DNA from: Candidatus Margulisiibacteriota bacterium
Lineage (GTDB): Bacteria > Margulisbacteria > Riflemargulisbacteria > GWF2-39-127
NCBI GenBank assembly: GCA_003242895.1
Contig: QKMY01000080.1
Location: forward strand, 1 to 39,691
Reading direction: 5' to 3'
Length of the DNA stretch: 39,691 nt
In this document: in pieces, positions 159 to 24,166 of the stretch
Position numbering within the stretch: the stretch's first letter is position 1
Layout: every line of letters starts with the position of its first letter
Notes under the pieces: model-generated
The model's input: only the letters and a program-made list of their open reading frames with translations
What the model was told of the DNA's origin: nothing
Databases searched by the model: none
Program-made: the position numbers and the translations under genes

Positions 159-683
159 TTATCCTTTTAGTTCTTTAGCCTCTTTCGCTTGCATGGCCCG
201 CTTATTTGCCACTTCATGTAAATGATCTTTTTCCTGATTACTAAATATTTTGTGAACATCCAGAATAATAATAAGACGATCATCCAGCTTGCCTACACCT
301 TTTATAAAGTCCGAATCTATATTTGCTACTATAGGGGATGGCGGTTCGACAGATGAATGAGGGATTCTCAAAACCTCCGAAACGGCGTCAACAATCATTC
401 CAATAACAATACCGGTTATCTCGATGACAACAATTCTTGTTTCAGCGCTCATTTGTGTAACATCTAAACTAAACCGTTTTCTTAGATCAAGCACAGGAAT
501 TACTTTACCTCGAAGATTAATTATACCTTCGACAAATTCTTGTGTTTTAGGAACTTTAGTTATATTTTGCATTCTAATGATTTCTTGAACTGATTGAATA
601 TCGACTCCATATTGTTCACCAGCCAAGTCAAATACAACAAGTTGTTCAATTTCTGATATAACTAAATCTTTCTGTACAGACAT
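159..683 (-). CDS. cheW: CheW-type chemotaxis coupling protein
   Basis: This 174-residue protein is a single CheW domain, the scaffold that links chemoreceptors to the CheA kinase at the inner face of the membrane. The N-terminal part (residues 13-60) reads as a typical CheW start: LVVFDLAGEQYGVDI, then VQEII and a KVP turn. The GIINLRGKVIPVLDLR motif is near residues 53-68, and the domain closes with ILDVHKIF near 140-147. A charged tail of about 25 residues follows. An AAGGAGA ribosome binding site lies about 7 bases before ATG 683. No cheA, cheR or cheB is in the window, but a chemoreceptor is encoded at 20631-22811. A terminator-like hairpin at 794-822 suggests transcription separate from the kinase gene upstream. 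Confidence 0.93.
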   Translation of the reverse strand: MSVQKDLVISEIEQLVVFDLAGEQYGVDIQSVQEIIRMQNITKVPKTQEFVEGIINLRGKVIPVLDLRKRFSLDVTQMSAETRIVVIEITGIVIGMIVDAVSEVLRIPHSSVEPPSPIVANIDSDFIKGVGKLDDRLIIILDVHKIFSNQEKDHLHEVANKRAMQAKEAKELKG

Positions 684-916: not shown

Positions 917-2248
917 TCAACTATAGGCAACAGGAAAAGATAGAACAAATTTCGTCCCTAACATCTCTTTCGAAATCACATCAATAGTACCATCATGGGT
1001 GTCGATAATTTGTTTCGTTACTGACAGACCTATTCCAGAGCTCTTATCTAAGCCCTTAGTAGTAAAAAAAGATTCGAATATTCGGGAGGTATCAGATTCT
1101 TTTATTCCGATTCCGTTATCTCTCACCTCAACAAAAACACGGTCATTCTTGTAATATGAGTATACATCTATAATGCCATCATTATAGAAAATTGCCTGTT
1201 CAGCATTGATAATAAGATTCATAAACACTTGCACAAGCTGATTAAGGTCACCAGATATCTTGGGTAATTTTTCCTCATTTTTTATGGTAAGCTTAATCTT
1301 TCTAATCTGAAGAAAGTTTTTAATTATAGCTTCGGTCCTTCTCAATACATCTACAATACTGACCTTTTCAAATTTTCCTTCATCTTTTCTCGAATATGAA
1401 AGAAAATTAGTAACGACAGACTCCAAATGCGATACTGACATCTCCAATCCCTCTATTAAATTATTATGAGTTTTTCTTAACCCAAGCTTATCAAACAGGT
1501 TTGAAAGAAGGGAAACATAGCCTTTAATCCCAGTCATAGGATTTTTGATCTCGTGAGCAACACCGGTAATCAGCTTTCCCATCGCAGAGAACTTTTCGCT
1601 TTGGATCAATTGTGACTGTATTTGCTCAATCTTTTTTTCATTGTCTATGAGCTCGGAAGTTTCACGCTCAATTGCTTCCTCCAACTCCTTTTTTGCAATT
1701 GCCAGACTTGCATTAGAATCATTCAATGAGGCCTTCAAATCATGATTGTACAATATCCAGCTTAACTGCAACGAAAACATTTCAAGTAATTTAGCATATT
1801 CAAGGATGTTCCGGCAGGAAAGTTTACTGGCAATAACCAGTCCGATAATATTATTCAGCAATAAAACCGGAACGACAACAAATTCATTACCCATATCCTG
1901 GTAATTAACACCATAGTCGCTAAGCTTTTCGTCATCTTTAATTAAAATACTGGTTCTTTCCTCTTGAATAAAATGGAGAAAGTCGAGGGGATTAATGTTC
2001 TTATATAAGTTTTCTAATTTGCTTCTGATATATGTCTTTTCAACACGGTTCTTCTCCTGGTTAAAAATAAAAATACCTGCACTGTCAAGGTCCAGAATTT
2101 TAATGACTTCTTCTAAAATGTCATCAAAAGGCATTTCTTCATCTGAGAAACTAAGATAATGGCTTAGCATCCTATAAATCTTAAGAGCTGCGGAATCTTC
2201 TTCCCGATCATCAAATTTGGACGATTTATATGTTTCTTTTTTTTTCAT
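917..2248 (-). CDS. Soluble sensor histidine kinase with GAF-like domain
   Basis: A 443-residue cytoplasmic histidine kinase with no membrane segment. Residues about 40-170 look like a GAF sensor domain. A charged coiled coil (about 173-220) leads into a HisKA box, GVAHEIKNPMTG, with phospho-acceptor His232. The ATPase domain carries the N box (NLIINAEQA, Asn348), G1 (DNGIG 377-381), the F box (FESFFTTK) and G2 (GIGL 405-408). All catalytic motifs appear intact. The order of domains resembles NtrB/AtoS-like kinases. The NtrC-like regulator gene lies 171 bases upstream on the same strand, so the two are very likely a cognate pair. The signal sensed is unknown. No clear Shine-Dalgarno precedes ATG 2248. 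Confidence 0.9.
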   Translation of the reverse strand: MKKKETYKSSKFDDREEDSAALKIYRMLSHYLSFSDEEMPFDDILEEVIKILDLDSAGIFIFNQEKNRVEKTYIRSKLENLYKNINPLDFLHFIQEERTSILIKDDEKLSDYGVNYQDMGNEFVVVPVLLLNNIIGLVIASKLSCRNILEYAKLLEMFSLQLSWILYNHDLKASLNDSNASLAIAKKELEEAIERETSELIDNEKKIEQIQSQLIQSEKFSAMGKLITGVAHEIKNPMTGIKGYVSLLSNLFDKLGLRKTHNNLIEGLEMSVSHLESVVTNFLSYSRKDEGKFEKVSIVDVLRRTEAIIKNFLQIRKIKLTIKNEEKLPKISGDLNQLVQVFMNLIINAEQAIFYNDGIIDVYSYYKNDRVFVEVRDNGIGIKESDTSRIFESFFTTKGLDKSSGIGLSVTKQIIDTHDGTIDVISKEMLGTKFVLSFPVAYS

Positions 2249-2419: not shown

Positions 2420-3745
2420 TCAAGTTATACCTGAAAGAATTATGTCGATCTTTTTCTTACTCACACCAAGAATAGTGCTTATTACCTCTCTATTTCCACT
2501 ATGTTCAGCATACAAATCTGAGACCAAATGACCAACGAAATTATCTAAAAGCTCAGAATAGCAAAAATTCAGAGGTGGTTTCCTCTTTCTCGTATTAAGT
2601 ATTATATTTAAAGGAATTCTAGCAGACAATATATTTTCGCCTTTAGAAATCAACACCAACCTACTTATTACATTACTAATTTCGGCAGTATTACCCGGCC
2701 ACTCATAATTGTGGAGAATATCCCTGGCCTCAGGGGCCATTTTACAATTGCTACCAAACTCCTTATTATATTTATTCAAATAATAATCAATTATTAAAGG
2801 AATATCCTCTTTTCTCATACTTAATGATGGTATTGAAATTGTTGACTCATTAATATAGTGGAATAGTTCCTCATCAAAAGTTTTGTCCTGAATATTTTCG
2901 GGAATATCAACGGTTGTACTTAGTATGATCCGAATCTTAATCTCCGGATTAACAGGGCCCTTGAAGCGATCCTCTAACCAAGCGACTACTTTTCTCTGAG
3001 TAAATAGAGGCATCTTCTCAATATTCTTGATATACAACGTACCTCCGTCTCCAATCTTGAGAAATCCAATAGCCGGCATCTCGTTAAAATCTTTGTCTTC
3101 AAATACACGGCCAAAAAGCTCTTCTTCTAAAACTTGAGAAGAACTTGCACAGTTAACAACTTTAAAAGCCTCTTTATAATTACTATTCTGATATATAGAA
3201 TGAGCAATAAGATCATGCTCAGCACCTTTATTACCAGAAATCAACACGGTAGATCCTGTTCCGGAGACCTCTGAGATAAAAGATCTAATTGACTTAATTT
3301 CAACGCTTTCACCAATCAATTCCCCAAATTCATTTGATTCAACAATTTGATCCTGGATCTTATTGCTTTTATCCATAATGTGCTTCTTCTTAGAGATTTT
3401 GAATAAAATTTTTAACAAATCTTCCATTTCAAAGGGTTTAGTAAGATAATTTAATGCACCGAGCTTCATTGTACTTGAGGTAATATCAGAATTAATTGTA
3501 GCAGTAACCATTATCACATCAGTATCCGGCGCTATCTTTTGGATAATTTTTAATGCTTCAATTCCATTTAAACGAGGCATCCGTATATCTAGAAGAATGA
3601 TGTCAAAATGCTCAACATATAGACAATCAATTGCCTCTTGACCATCACTCAAAGCCGTCACATCATAATATTCCCGCAAGGCAAAGGTCAGAACCTGCCG
3701 AATACTTTTATCATCGTCAACGACTAAAATTTTTAATTTCTTCAT
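2420..3745 (-). CDS. NtrC-like response regulator with degenerate AAA+ domain
   Basis: A 441-residue protein with NtrC architecture. The receiver (1-120) has D10, D11, phospho-acceptor D53, T81 and K103. A sigma54-activator-type AAA+ region (about 141-375) and a Fis-type helix-turn-helix (about 408-440, SGNREVISTILGVSKKK) follow. The receiver and DNA-binding ends look functional, but the AAA+ core does not. The Walker A position reads GNKGAEHD instead of GxxGxGKE (171-178). The GAFTGA loop after EEELFG is replaced by unrelated residues. Walker B reads LYIKNI instead of LFLDEI. The FREDLFxR arginines are D and Y, and the sensor-II motif is WPGNTAEI rather than WPGNVREL. By family knowledge it should neither hydrolyse ATP nor contact sigma54, so I infer it acts as a simple phosphorylation-controlled DNA binder. 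AAGGAT precedes ATG 3745. The likely partner is the downstream kinase. Confidence 0.88.
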   Translation of the reverse strand: MKKLKILVVDDDKSIRQVLTFALREYYDVTALSDGQEAIDCLYVEHFDIILLDIRMPRLNGIEALKIIQKIAPDTDVIMVTATINSDITSSTMKLGALNYLTKPFEMEDLLKILFKISKKKHIMDKSNKIQDQIVESNEFGELIGESVEIKSIRSFISEVSGTGSTVLISGNKGAEHDLIAHSIYQNSNYKEAFKVVNCASSSQVLEEELFGRVFEDKDFNEMPAIGFLKIGDGGTLYIKNIEKMPLFTQRKVVAWLEDRFKGPVNPEIKIRIILSTTVDIPENIQDKTFDEELFHYINESTISIPSLSMRKEDIPLIIDYYLNKYNKEFGSNCKMAPEARDILHNYEWPGNTAEISNVISRLVLISKGENILSARIPLNIILNTRKRKPPLNFCYSELLDNFVGHLVSDLYAEHSGNREVISTILGVSKKKIDIILSGIT

Positions 3746-6440: not shown

Positions 6441-6818
6441 TTAATACTGCTTCATTTTTTCGAAAAGTATGCGATATACCCGATTAATGAGATCATCTAT
6501 ATCAAAAGGCTTTTCAATATAATCACATGCACCATGCTTCATCGCTTCATCAAGAATATATTTATCTTTTACAGCAGTTGCCATGATTACTTCAATCGAA
6601 GCATCTTGCTGTTTGATCAGCTTTAAGGTTGCGATACCATCGATACTGCCTACCATTCTCATGTCCAGCAGCACTAAGTCAATGTGATTTTTTTGAATTA
6701 TTCCTACAGCTTCTTCACCGCTACAAGCTTTGTAGATGTCATAATCCTCGCTAAAGATTGCCTCAATAGATTGTCTAATGATATGTTCATCATCAACAAT
6801 TAAAATAGAGTATTGCAC
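6441..6818 (-). CDS. Stand-alone receiver (CheY-like) protein
   Basis: A 125-residue single receiver domain with no output domain. Visible conserved residues are the acidic pair D9/D10, phospho-acceptor D52, T81 and K103 in the EKPF motif. All positions needed for phosphotransfer are intact. It starts with GTG at 6818, supported by AAGGTGG six bases upstream. The sequence (ATAVKDKYILDEAMKHGACDYIEKPF) resembles the receivers of NtrC-family regulators, including the one at 2420-3745. No kinase is adjacent. The partner could be the kinase at 917-2248, but this is inference. Confidence 0.88.
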   Translation of the reverse strand: MQYSILIVDDEHIIRQSIEAIFSEDYDIYKACSGEEAVGIIQKNHIDLVLLDMRMVGSIDGIATLKLIKQQDASIEVIMATAVKDKYILDEAMKHGACDYIEKPFDIDDLINRVYRILFEKMKQY

Positions 6819-7264: not shown

Positions 7265-7627
7265 ATGAAAAAAAAGGTATTAATAATTGATGACGAAATG
7301 TCTATTCATTCCTCATTACAGTTTCTCTTCAATCAATATAACCTCGACGTACTTCATGCCTCGACAGCTCACGAGGCTATAAGAATATTGAAGGAAACAA
7401 AACCTGACCTGATTTTTATGGACTTCAAACTTCCGGAAACCAACGGGATTATTCTCACTCAAAAAATCCATTCCCATCCTGAGTATAAAGATATACCTAT
7501 AATAGGGATCACTGCGTATGCAACTGAAGACAATAGGCAGTTTGCACTAAATAACGGGATAAAAACTATTCTGGAAAAGCCCTTTGATCTGGTAGAACTT
7601 CAAAAACAAATCAATATTTATTTATGA
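7265..7627 (+). CDS. Stand-alone receiver (CheY-like) protein, first of tandem pair
   Basis: A 120-residue single receiver domain. It shows D9/D10, phospho-acceptor D53 in MDFKLPETNG, T83 in GITAYAT, and K105 in EKPF, so it is predicted to be phosphorylatable. AAAGGA lies about nine bases before ATG 7265. The next gene (7790) encodes a similar receiver sharing the TAYA(T/S)E signature after the conserved threonine. That suggests a local duplication or descent from hybrid-kinase-type receivers. Output is presumably by protein-protein contact, since there is no DNA-binding domain. The partner is unknown. Confidence 0.88.
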   Translation: MKKKVLIIDDEMSIHSSLQFLFNQYNLDVLHASTAHEAIRILKETKPDLIFMDFKLPETNGIILTQKIHSHPEYKDIPIIGITAYATEDNRQFALNNGIKTILEKPFDLVELQKQINIYL

Positions 7628-7789: not shown

Positions 7790-8158
7790 ATGAAAAAAAA
7801 GATACTAGTCGTAGATGATGAACCGTCAATCGTTCAAACGCTTAAACTCCTTCTAGAAATGGAAGGATATGAAGTCTATACTGCCAATAATGGACAGGTA
7901 GGCTATGAAAAGGCAATGGAAGTTTTCCCTAACTTAGTAATCATTGATTTCAAAATGCCGATACTAGATGGTTGGGAAGCTACAAAACGCATGCGTCAAG
8001 TACCAGGGCTTGAAAACATTCCTATTTTAGGCAACACGGCATATGCGTCCGAAGAAAATATTATCCAGGGTATTGAGAGCGGAATTACAGAAGTTGTCAG
8101 GAAGCCTTTTAACATAGAAAAGCTGCAAAATCTTGTAAAACGTTATCTTGGTGAATAG
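7790..8158 (+). CDS. Stand-alone receiver (CheY-like) protein, second of tandem pair
   Basis: A 122-residue single receiver domain with D9/D10, phospho-acceptor D53 (IIDFKMPILDGWEAT), T83 (GNTAYAS) and K105 (RKPF). The DGWEAT stretch and the TAYAS motif are typical of receivers found in hybrid kinases and phosphorelays. The gene lies 162 bases after its neighbour and has no strong ribosome binding site before ATG 7790. It converges on ruvA with a gap of only six bases. There is no output domain. Its role in a phosphorelay or chemotaxis branch is inference. Confidence 0.87.
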   Translation: MKKKILVVDDEPSIVQTLKLLLEMEGYEVYTANNGQVGYEKAMEVFPNLVIIDFKMPILDGWEATKRMRQVPGLENIPILGNTAYASEENIIQGIESGITEVVRKPFNIEKLQNLVKRYLGE

Positions 8159-20630: not shown

Positions 20631-22811
20631 ATGGCAAAAAAGGGTTCTCTTACACAAAAAATCACCGTATTCTCGTCTCTTCTCGTTTTGATTACAGCGG
20701 TATTAATCCTCGGTATCAATATTGTTTGGGACAACTACGCGTTACAGCAAGAACTTAAAGAATATCGTAAAACAACAGAAGCCGAAACACAAAAACACCT
20801 CAAAGATGTTGTCGAAATTGCATATGTTACCGTTGAAAAAATCTATAAAGATTTTTACGATAAAGATATGGCAAAAGGTGTCATAAGCAGTTTACGATTT
20901 GGTCCGGAAAAAAAGGACTATTTATGGATTCATACTAATACTGAAAAACCGATGATGGTTATGCACCCGATTATATCGGAACTCGATGACACTGATATTT
21001 CCGATTTTTATGATGTAAAAAAATTCGATAAAGTATTCTATAGAGGCGCAACCTATTCAAAAAACGATACACTCATTAAAGATAACATAAAACCAGTCAA
21101 CCTGTTTATAGACATGAATACTGAAGTTAAAACACATAAGGGAAGCGGTTTTGTCAAATACTACTGGCCGAAACCTGGAAAAGAGAAAAATACCGGTTAT
21201 GAAAAACTGTCCTATGTAAAGTTATTTGAACCTTGGGGTTGGGTTATTGGAACAGGCGTTTATATTGATATCATCGATGAACAAGCGGCTCTAAAAGTAA
21301 AAGAATTAAAGAAAAATATTACTAATAAAATAATAGTCGTCATTCTATTAACATTAATTATCATTATAATCGCAGTATATGCCGCGTACATTACTACAAA
21401 AAAAATCATAAAACCAATTGAAAAAATTAACAGCGTACTTCAACAACTATCCGAGGGTAATTTTGCAACATCTCTTGATGTAACAAGCACGGATGAGGTC
21501 GGAGAAATAGCTGACTCGGTTAGAGCGATGATAGAAAAATTAAGGGAACTCATTAAACTTGTCTCTGAATCTTCTTCCCGAGTCTTATCTGAGTTCAATT
21601 CTCTTCTCAGCACATCAAAGGAAACGAAGCAATCTGTCAACCAAATCGCATGTGCAATCAACGGGATCGCGGAAGGATCAGGAAAACAAGTAGAATCAGT
21701 TAAAAGCATTATCGTTGATATGGGTCTTATTATGAATGAAATTACTAATGTTGCAGAAGGTGCAAATCAACAGGTAAAAACAACTAAAAACACTGGAAAT
21801 ATTGTTAACCAAAATGATAGCGAGATGACCAATATTGCAAAAGCTGCCAAAAAGCAAACCGCTGATGTAGAAAATACAAAAAGAATAATAAATCAAATGT
21901 CACAAGCGATTGACCAGGTTACACACGAGACAACAAGCGTGTCACAAAATTCACTTCGCACGGCTGATATTGCTCAAGACGGAGAAGTAATTGTTTCAAA
22001 TACATTGGTTGCGATGGAGAAAATCAAAGAAACCGTATTAGATACTGCAAAAAAAATTACGGAACTCGGAGAAAGCTCATCTCAAATAGAGGAAATAATA
22101 GAAGTTATTGACAATATTGCTGAGCAAACCAACCTGCTAGCGCTGAACGCGGCTATCGAAGCGGCGCGGGCAGGAGAACACGGACGGGGATTTGCAGTTG
22201 TTGCAGACGAAGTAAGAAAGCTCGCTGAACGCTCTGGAACAGCAACAAAGGAAATTGCAACACTCATTAAAAAAATCCAGGAAGGAACTAATACTGCAGT
22301 TAAATCGATGAGAAGCGGGACTCAAGAAGTTCAAAAAGGATCGGAACTCGCTCAACAAGCAAAAGTGGCACTTAAAAATATTATCGATGCAGTGAAAAAT
22401 ACCGTAGATCAAATACAAAACATCTCTGCTGCTGCCGAAGAAATGTCCGCCTCTAGTGAAGAAGTGGTCAAAACAATGGATAATATTACGACAATTATCG
22501 AAACCAATACGAATGCAATACAGCAGTTAACTACGAGTTCGAAAGATGTTGTCTCTGCCATTGGGAATATACAGGTGATTTCTGAGCAGAATCAAAATGC
22601 TTCTGATAATATGAAAAACAAATATCAACAAGTTACAACCAAAATAACCGACATTTCAGGCATTTCGGAAGACAATTCTGCGTCGATAGAACAGGTTTCC
22701 GCATCTACTGAAGAAGTAACGGCTACTATGGAAACATTCACAGATAAAATACAGAGCCTCGAGTCAATGGCAAGAGATCTCGAAGATAATGTAAAAGTGT
22801 TCAATATTTAA
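20631..22811 (+). CDS. Methyl-accepting chemotaxis protein with Cache sensor
   Basis: A 726-residue transmembrane chemoreceptor. TM1 is near 11-33. A periplasmic single-Cache-type domain spans about 35-225 ([18 protein letters not shown], then [14 protein letters not shown]). TM2 is near 233-255, and HAMP near 255-310 ([19 protein letters not shown]). A long cytoplasmic helical bundle follows, with the highly conserved hairpin tip [19 protein letters not shown] starting at 510. That tip binds CheW and CheA. No NWETF-like CheR/CheB docking pentapeptide ends the protein (it ends KVFNI). The next gene encodes a periplasmic binding protein, a likely ligand-presenting partner. A CheW is encoded at 159-683. 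Confidence 0.95.
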
Positions 22812-22894
22812 CTCTTTAGGTTTGAGACTCCATACAAAGGGGGTGCTTGTACACATCAAGACAGAAATACTATTTTTTATAAAAGGAGTCGTTA

Positions 22895-24166
22895 ATGAGA
22901 AATAAAAATTTATTATTTGTTTTTCTTATGTTGTTATCAACATTAATATTACCAGCGTTTGCCGATACGGTAAAATTAGGAATAAACTACCCGAAAACAG
23001 GACCATATTCAGCAGAAGGACTTGACCAGATAAGGGCTGCAGAGATGGCAGTTGAGGAGATCAACAATGCCGGAGGCATCTTAGGGAATAAAGTCTCATT
23101 GGTAGTTCGTGATTCACAGTCCAAAGTTGATATCACAAATAAAAATGTTACTGACCTGATCGATAATGAAAAAGTCAAAATGGTATTCGGCGGTTCTGCC
23201 AGTAGTGTCGCCGTAGCTTCCGCCAAAATCTGCCAGGAAAAAGGAGTGCCTTTTTTTGGAACTCTCACCTATTCCAATGCTACGACCGTAGAGGACGGAC
23301 ACCGGCACACATTCAGGGAATGCTACAATGCCTGGATGGGCGCTAAAGTATTGGCATCCTACCTGAAACAGAATTTTGCCGGTAAAAAATATTTTTATAT
23401 AACGGCTGATTATACATGGGGCTGGTCCACTGAGGATTCTGTAAGAAAATTCAGCGGTACCGAAGATAAAAAGAAACACCCGGGGGTTCTTACACCTTTT
23501 CCGACTGCAGAAGGGAAAGACTTCAAAATAGCCCTGGAAAAAGCTGTAGCGGCTAATCCCGATGTGCTTGTCCTTGTAGAATTCGGTAAAGACATGACAA
23601 AGGCGGTCAGGCTGGCCAACCAGATGGGGCTCAAGAAAAAAATGAAAATTGTGGTACCTAATCTTACCCTGAGTATGGCTGAAGGTGGTGGACCGCAAAA
23701 CATGGATGGCGTAATAGGAGCTATCCCATGGACATGGCAAGTCCCGACAAAATACAATTATCCAAAAGGAATTGCCTTTGTTGATAAATTTACAAAAAGG
23801 TATAATAGATATCCAGACACTTCAGGTGCATCTGCATATACTATCGTGTATGAATACAAAGCAGCCGTTGAAAGGGCAAAATCTTTTGATAATGATGCTG
23901 TGATCAAAGCTCTGGAAGGTCACACATACCAGCTACTAAAAGACAAACAGACCTGGAGGGCTTTTGATCATCAATCGATTCAGACAGTGTATGCAGTCAA
24001 ATGCAAACCAATGTCAGCTGTACTGAAAGATGAGTATCAACTTGATTATTTTGAAATCATTGGGTCTATGACAGGTGACCAAGCTGCCCAGTCGAAAAAA
24101 GAATGGGACGCAGCACGAACTGCTGCTGGAAAGCCAACAAAACTCGAACCTCTTGCAGGCGAATAA
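22895..24166 (+). CDS. Periplasmic ligand-binding protein (Peripla_BP_6 type)
   Basis: A 423-residue substrate-binding protein of the branched-chain amino acid / amide / urea class. A signal peptide with cleavage after AFA (about residue 23) and no lipobox Cys implies a free periplasmic protein. The mature start VKLGINYPKTGPYSAEG and the AAEMAVEEINNAGGILG segment are typical of LivK-like folds, as is VKMVFGGSASSVAVASAKI. No permease or ATPase genes accompany it, and it directly follows the chemoreceptor by 83 bases with a strong AAAAGGAG site. I infer that it presents ligand to that receptor. Its GC content appears higher than that of neighbouring genes, so recent acquisition or high expression is possible. 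A strong terminator follows. Confidence 0.92.
   Translation: MRNKNLLFVFLMLLSTLILPAFADTVKLGINYPKTGPYSAEGLDQIRAAEMAVEEINNAGGILGNKVSLVVRDSQSKVDITNKNVTDLIDNEKVKMVFGGSASSVAVASAKICQEKGVPFFGTLTYSNATTVEDGHRHTFRECYNAWMGAKVLASYLKQNFAGKKYFYITADYTWGWSTEDSVRKFSGTEDKKKHPGVLTPFPTAEGKDFKIALEKAVAANPDVLVLVEFGKDMTKAVRLANQMGLKKKMKIVVPNLTLSMAEGGGPQNMDGVIGAIPWTWQVPTKYNYPKGIAFVDKFTKRYNRYPDTSGASAYTIVYEYKAAVERAKSFDNDAVIKALEGHTYQLLKDKQTWRAFDHQSIQTVYAVKCKPMSAVLKDEYQLDYFEIIGSMTGDQAAQSKKEWDAARTAAGKPTKLEPLAGE

Follow-up and report, generated by a model that had tools for sequence, protein, structure and literature searches.

In the window (the whole stretch of 39,691 nucleotides that was analysed), the minus strand carries at positions 2420–3745 a gene for a dismantled NtrC-like response regulator of 441 amino acids plus stop, referred to below as the query, with a Rec-AAA+-lid organization. 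Its receiver domain (residues 6–114, positions 3404–3730) matches Pfam PF00072 (Response_reg) at 9e-28, its degenerate AAA+ core (residues 143–303, positions 2837–3319) matches PF00158 (Sigma54_activat) at 5e-24, and its AAA+ lid (residues 311–388, positions 2582–2815) matches PF25601 (AAA_lid_14) at 6e-19. With such E-values, homology is certain. The C-terminal helices, at positions 2423–2560, take the place of the Fis-type helix-turn-helix (HTH) of intact homologues. The frame is that of a real gene: 441 codons without a stop are expected with a chance of only ~6e-14 in neutral DNA of equal composition (a sequence-only reading of this DNA had already called the frame preserved), and the codon-position composition resembles that of the neighbouring genes. 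The AlphaFold model shows a confident fold (pLDDT 88), with the AAA+ core folded like those of NtrC1, FleQ and NtrX, and the nearest solved structures to the whole model are NtrX, NtrC1, NtrC4, LuxO, FleQ and VpsR.

From the alignment to the solved Aquifex NtrC1 (PDB 4l4u/1ny5, E ~1e-50), it is evident how thoroughly the motor has been dismantled. The P-loop GESGVGKE of NtrC1 has become GNKGAEHD (residues 171–178, positions 3212–3235), with the Gly changed to E176 and the Lys to H177, and the Walker B LDE has become IKN (segment 236–242, positions 3020–3040), with both acids replaced (K240 and N241). The former GAFTGA loop L1 (residues 212–226, positions 3068–3112) aligns as KDFNE plus a gap, and its model drops to a pLDDT under 50 at residues 216–220. 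In the former arginine-finger segment FDEELFHYI (residues 290–298, positions 2852–2878) D291 and Y297 stand for the arginines of FREDLYYR, so that both fingers are gone, and in the lid the sensor II motif WxGNVRE reads WPGNTAE, with A354 for the arginine. The sequence-only reading had listed the losses in Walker A, Walker B, GAFTGA, the FREDLFxR arginines and the sensor II arginine, every one of which is borne out here; the list was incomplete, however, since sensor I is lost as well (ATN in NtrC1, TTV in the query). The coordinated loss of every ATP and sigma54 feature is thus supported, and so is the proposed independence from ATP.

The receiver has kept its full set of key residues, namely D10, D11, the phospho-acceptor D53, T81 and K103, in agreement with its earlier description as intact. 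The next gene (917–2248, minus strand) encodes an intact soluble histidine kinase with Pfam HisKA and HATPase_c matches, in which no membrane or sensor domains were recognised; it is the probable partner, as had been suggested. The Fis-type HTH, in contrast, is not so clearly intact as had been claimed. Pfam HTH_8 gave no match in the query even at E ≤ 1, whereas it matched all 22 intact paralogues, and the recognition helix reads SKKKI where the same 22 have R-x-T-L. Helices are still predicted at the C-terminus (396–414, 419–426 and 430–440, pLDDT ~90), and the basic KKK in the last of them could still bind DNA. Of the earlier idea of a repurposed ATP-independent transcription factor, the motor loss and the independence from ATP stand, but with no support for an intact HTH "transcription factor" becomes only one option.

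Since one rpoN and six sigma54 activators, all strong matches and intact, are present in the genome (3.35 Mb, 82 contigs, 100% complete), a loss of sigma54 cannot be why the motor disappeared. It also encodes a second atypical sigma54-activator-like protein (L121:5751-7067, G000:C1, minus strand), which like the query lacks GAFTGA and has a degenerate Walker B; unlike the query, it keeps Walker A and the sensor II arginine, and no receiver is recognised in its N-terminal domain. Downstream of the kinase lies a CheW-like gene (159–683, minus strand, Pfam CheW 1e-42), a putative functional link. Three lone receiver domains (6441–6818 on the minus strand, 7265–7627 and 7790–8158 on the plus strand) lie near the query and the kinase, forming a signalling cluster. 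Farther along, at 20631–24166, a methyl-accepting chemotaxis-type protein stands immediately before a periplasmic binding protein of the amino-acid/amide type; the two, named here from reading the sequence only, may form a sensor pair. A scan of the window for sigma54 promoters returned 12 matches against 14 expected, that is, no signal.

The query is not the only such protein in its phylum. When five motor motifs were scored in each homologue from 74 genomes of the phylum, 30 genomes were found to carry dismantled NtrC paralogues. In addition to the query, 27 full-length proteins retain none or one of the five motifs; all five are present in 61 homologues of that set. Three more genomes contribute a contig-end fragment (L153), a partly deleted version (L155) and a gene from which the AAA core is wholly gone (L154:5752-6561, genome G033), its receiver, lid and C-terminal helices being joined directly. 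The 27 full-length relatives have lost nearly all of their catalytic residues, with 11 of them keeping the Walker B Asp. The P-loop Gly before the Lys is Glu in every one, as it is in the query (28/28), and the Lys itself is kept in 25, where the query has His. The catalytic Glu has turned into Asn (19) or His (6) in 25 of the 27 and into Gln or Arg in the others; the query has Asn (N241). The recognition-helix core R-x-T-L is missing in all 28. Since the P-loop G, G and E (GxxGxE) are invariant in the 27 relatives, the dead loop seems to have been retained for structure; lid residue R311 is invariant too.

A 383-genome sample yielded, in its genomes from other phyla, no family members at E ≤ 1e-119, a strict threshold that would miss more distant ones. 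The best relatives of the query in that sample are NtrC-type frames of 451–496 aa and similar, and a search of genome contigs for close relatives returned three distant loci only. A degenerate sigma54-type AAA protein on a Thermodesulfovibrionales contig (L047:2761-4383) has the Walker B LKNIDKM, close to the IKNIEKM of the query, and has genes for a HAMP histidine kinase and for an intact response regulator-activator downstream of it.

In the pairs measured, the dismantled family is under purifying selection. Three pairs of motor-dead relatives (the query itself not among them) gave dN/dS values of 0.12–0.19, whereas the intact paralogue gave 0.05 in the single pair that allowed both to be compared; these values are rough because the synonymous sites are near or above saturation. 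By region, constraint is strongest in the receiver (dN/dS 0.03–0.16) and persists in the AAA core (0.11–0.21), the lid (0.22–0.37) and the C-terminus (0.15–0.22). Sequence conservation within the family likewise peaks in the receiver, at 64% identity versus 45% in the intact NtrC compared, and the AAA core shows the reverse, at 35% versus 62%. This conservation pattern is that of a protein in which the input matters and the motor does not.

Gene context in the relatives brings in a further component, a small all-helical protein of ~105 aa that we call X (for example L104:7784-8176), which matches no Pfam family and no solved structure (best E 1.1). X lies directly upstream of the dismantled gene in all 29 loci with context, including that of the core-deleted version, and the two co-occur in the same 30 genomes. 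At 15 loci, from families f6, f14, f27 and f28, the genes rpoN, intact ntrC, X and dismantled ntrC follow in this order on one strand, and two further loci of this kind are interrupted by contig ends. Several genomes of families f5, f8, f11 and f29 keep rpoN together with an intact NtrC-like gene and have the X-dismantled pair elsewhere. Such an operon points towards the sigma54 system and not away from it; as far as gene context in the relatives can tell, the dismantled family is tied to that system. At the query locus both X and the rpoN-ntrC neighbourhood are absent. Weaker X-like proteins occur in other families (for example L162:4173-4505) and, in the genome of the query, near a CheW gene (L161:7580-7918).

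In relation to this family, the query sits on a long branch. To examine long-branch attraction, trees were built without the motif columns, on separate partitions and without the dismantled clade, and AU tests were run. In the careful tree, with the motor-motif columns removed, the query and its 27 relatives form one clade (support 98/96), and all partition trees place it with that clade: the receiver with support of 26, AAA+lid+C-terminus without motifs with 98, and lid+C-terminus with 72 (the last two overlap). The branch of the query lengthens from 1.6 to 2.8 when the clade is left out, and columns outside the tree agree, through the shared P-loop Glu and the Walker B Asn that the query has in common with 19 of the 27. 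All this speaks against the alternative that the query is a separate motor-dead paralogue of an activator of its own lineage, its resemblances convergent and its grouping due to long-branch attraction. That alternative draws on an AU test that did not reject the query with its own intact activator L006 (p=0.08), on a gene neighbourhood that differs from that of the family, and on families f2 and f3 of the same class, which show no such gene. Profiles built without the query also lean slightly its way: they score the query at 316 bits (dismantled) versus 337 (intact), an ambiguous result beside the >200 bits that separate the two scores for intact proteins of this genome and the >100 bits, in the opposite direction, for family members. 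A description of the query as a plain member of the clade is weakened by this profile test and by the missing X. Common origin is thus favoured by the sequence comparisons but not proven; we consider it fairly likely that the query is a deep, re-wired member of the family, and rather unlikely that it is an independent, parallel case. An independent origin would be compatible with either mechanism discussed below, and under neither origin does the query look like a pseudogene.

What, then, might a motor-dead NtrC do? Our leading proposal, to which we give an even chance, is that the query has remained functional as a motor-dead NtrC paralogue, which probably branched off early within the family, and that it most likely acts on intact sigma54 activators as a partner or antagonist without catalytic activity. 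From the adjacency and the intact sites, we infer that the kinase at 917–2248 most likely phosphorylates D53. The phosphorylated receiver would then alter association through the receiver, lid and C-terminal helices, and the protein would act with neither ATP hydrolysis nor a GAFTGA contact to sigma54. For a protein with neither nucleotide hydrolysis nor a sigma54 loop nor HTH contact residues, the simplest output would be contact with other proteins. The likeliest role would be that of a partner or antagonist, for example in mixed dimers or rings, a kind of activator assembly known from elsewhere, and not that of an enhancer-binding ATPase. The operon in the relatives suggests intact NtrC, RpoN and X as likely targets there, and the genome of the query offers rpoN and its six intact activators as possible ones. 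More tentatively still, and with somewhat less than an even chance, a duplicated NtrC may have become, in this phylum, a conserved pseudo-ATPase within the sigma54 system, a subunit switched by phosphorylation that tunes the intact ATPase together with X, the query being an early-branching, re-wired member with its own kinase.

The main rival, which takes up the sequence-only reading and which we judge doubtful, makes the query an ATP-independent, sigma70-dependent DNA-binding transcription factor like VpsR or R. capsulatus NtrC, with phosphorylation controlling dimerisation and DNA binding. Sigma70-dependent activators that lack GAFTGA have been described, and independence from ATP is reported for VpsR (PMC10274813); our model has VpsR and NtrX among its nearest solved structures, and the C-terminal helices are predicted with good confidence. 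The undetectable HTH_8, the R-x-T-L core gone from the query as from its 27 relatives, and the frequent location of these relatives within an rpoN-ntrC operon all weigh against this reading, which would apply above all to the query with its KKK helix. An improbable reading is that of a phosphate sink or receiver-only signalling protein with the remainder as a passive scaffold: the receiver is indeed by far the best conserved part and one genome does without the AAA core, yet a passive scaffold fits poorly with the invariant P-loop G, G and E and lid R311, or with dN/dS values that remain at 0.1–0.4 in the AAA core and lid. That the query is simply a decaying gene, as the loss of all motor motifs and the long branch might suggest, is very improbable given its open frame, gene-like codon composition, intact receiver and confident fold, and given the conserved motor-dead relatives, found in 30 genomes and under purifying selection in the measured pairs.

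Pseudo-enzymes that regulate active paralogues are well known among kinases. If the reading as a pseudo-ATPase subunit is true, a receiver-controlled pseudo-AAA+ regulator of sigma54 transcription would constitute a new layer of control. The phylum also offers a natural series in which the motor is intact, dead or, with the AAA core wholly deleted, absent, and which allows one to ask which parts of NtrC matter without ATP hydrolysis; it warns, too, against taking every Sigma54_activat match for a sigma54 activator. In the open-licence papers searched we found no complete motor loss retained across the families of a phylum in an rpoN-ntrC-X operon, and no pseudo-AAA+ paralogue with a receiver whose gene accompanies rpoN, an intact ntrC and the gene of a conserved small protein.

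Compared with the NtrC/AtoC-type sigma54 activators (bEBPs) such as Aquifex NtrC1 (1ny5/4l4u), the query has the same Rec-AAA+-lid-C-terminal-helices architecture from end to end (the fold comparison gives 30% identity to 4l4u), but it is without Walker A and B, GAFTGA, sensor I, the arginine fingers, sensor II and the HTH contact core. NtrC proteins without GAFTGA and ATP-independent ones are already known, and R. capsulatus NtrC, Caulobacter NtrC and VpsR share with the query the response-regulator architecture and the loss of the sigma54 loop. Caulobacter NtrC, however, depends on Walker A and B residues that it has retained, R. capsulatus NtrC depends on the binding of ATP, and VpsR needs no ATP (PMC10274813); unlike these DNA-binding proteins, the query is without the whole motor and the HTH contact core. 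In the relatives of the query, an intact and a dead paralogue occur in one operon; a possible parallel is offered by the paralogous activators HrpR/HrpS, FleQ/FleT and the VnfA paralogues, which act as hetero-oligomers (PMC4145663, PMC9542535). HrpRS and FleQ/FleT are without N-terminal regulatory domains (PMC9542535), whereas in the dismantled NtrC proteins the receiver is the best-kept part.
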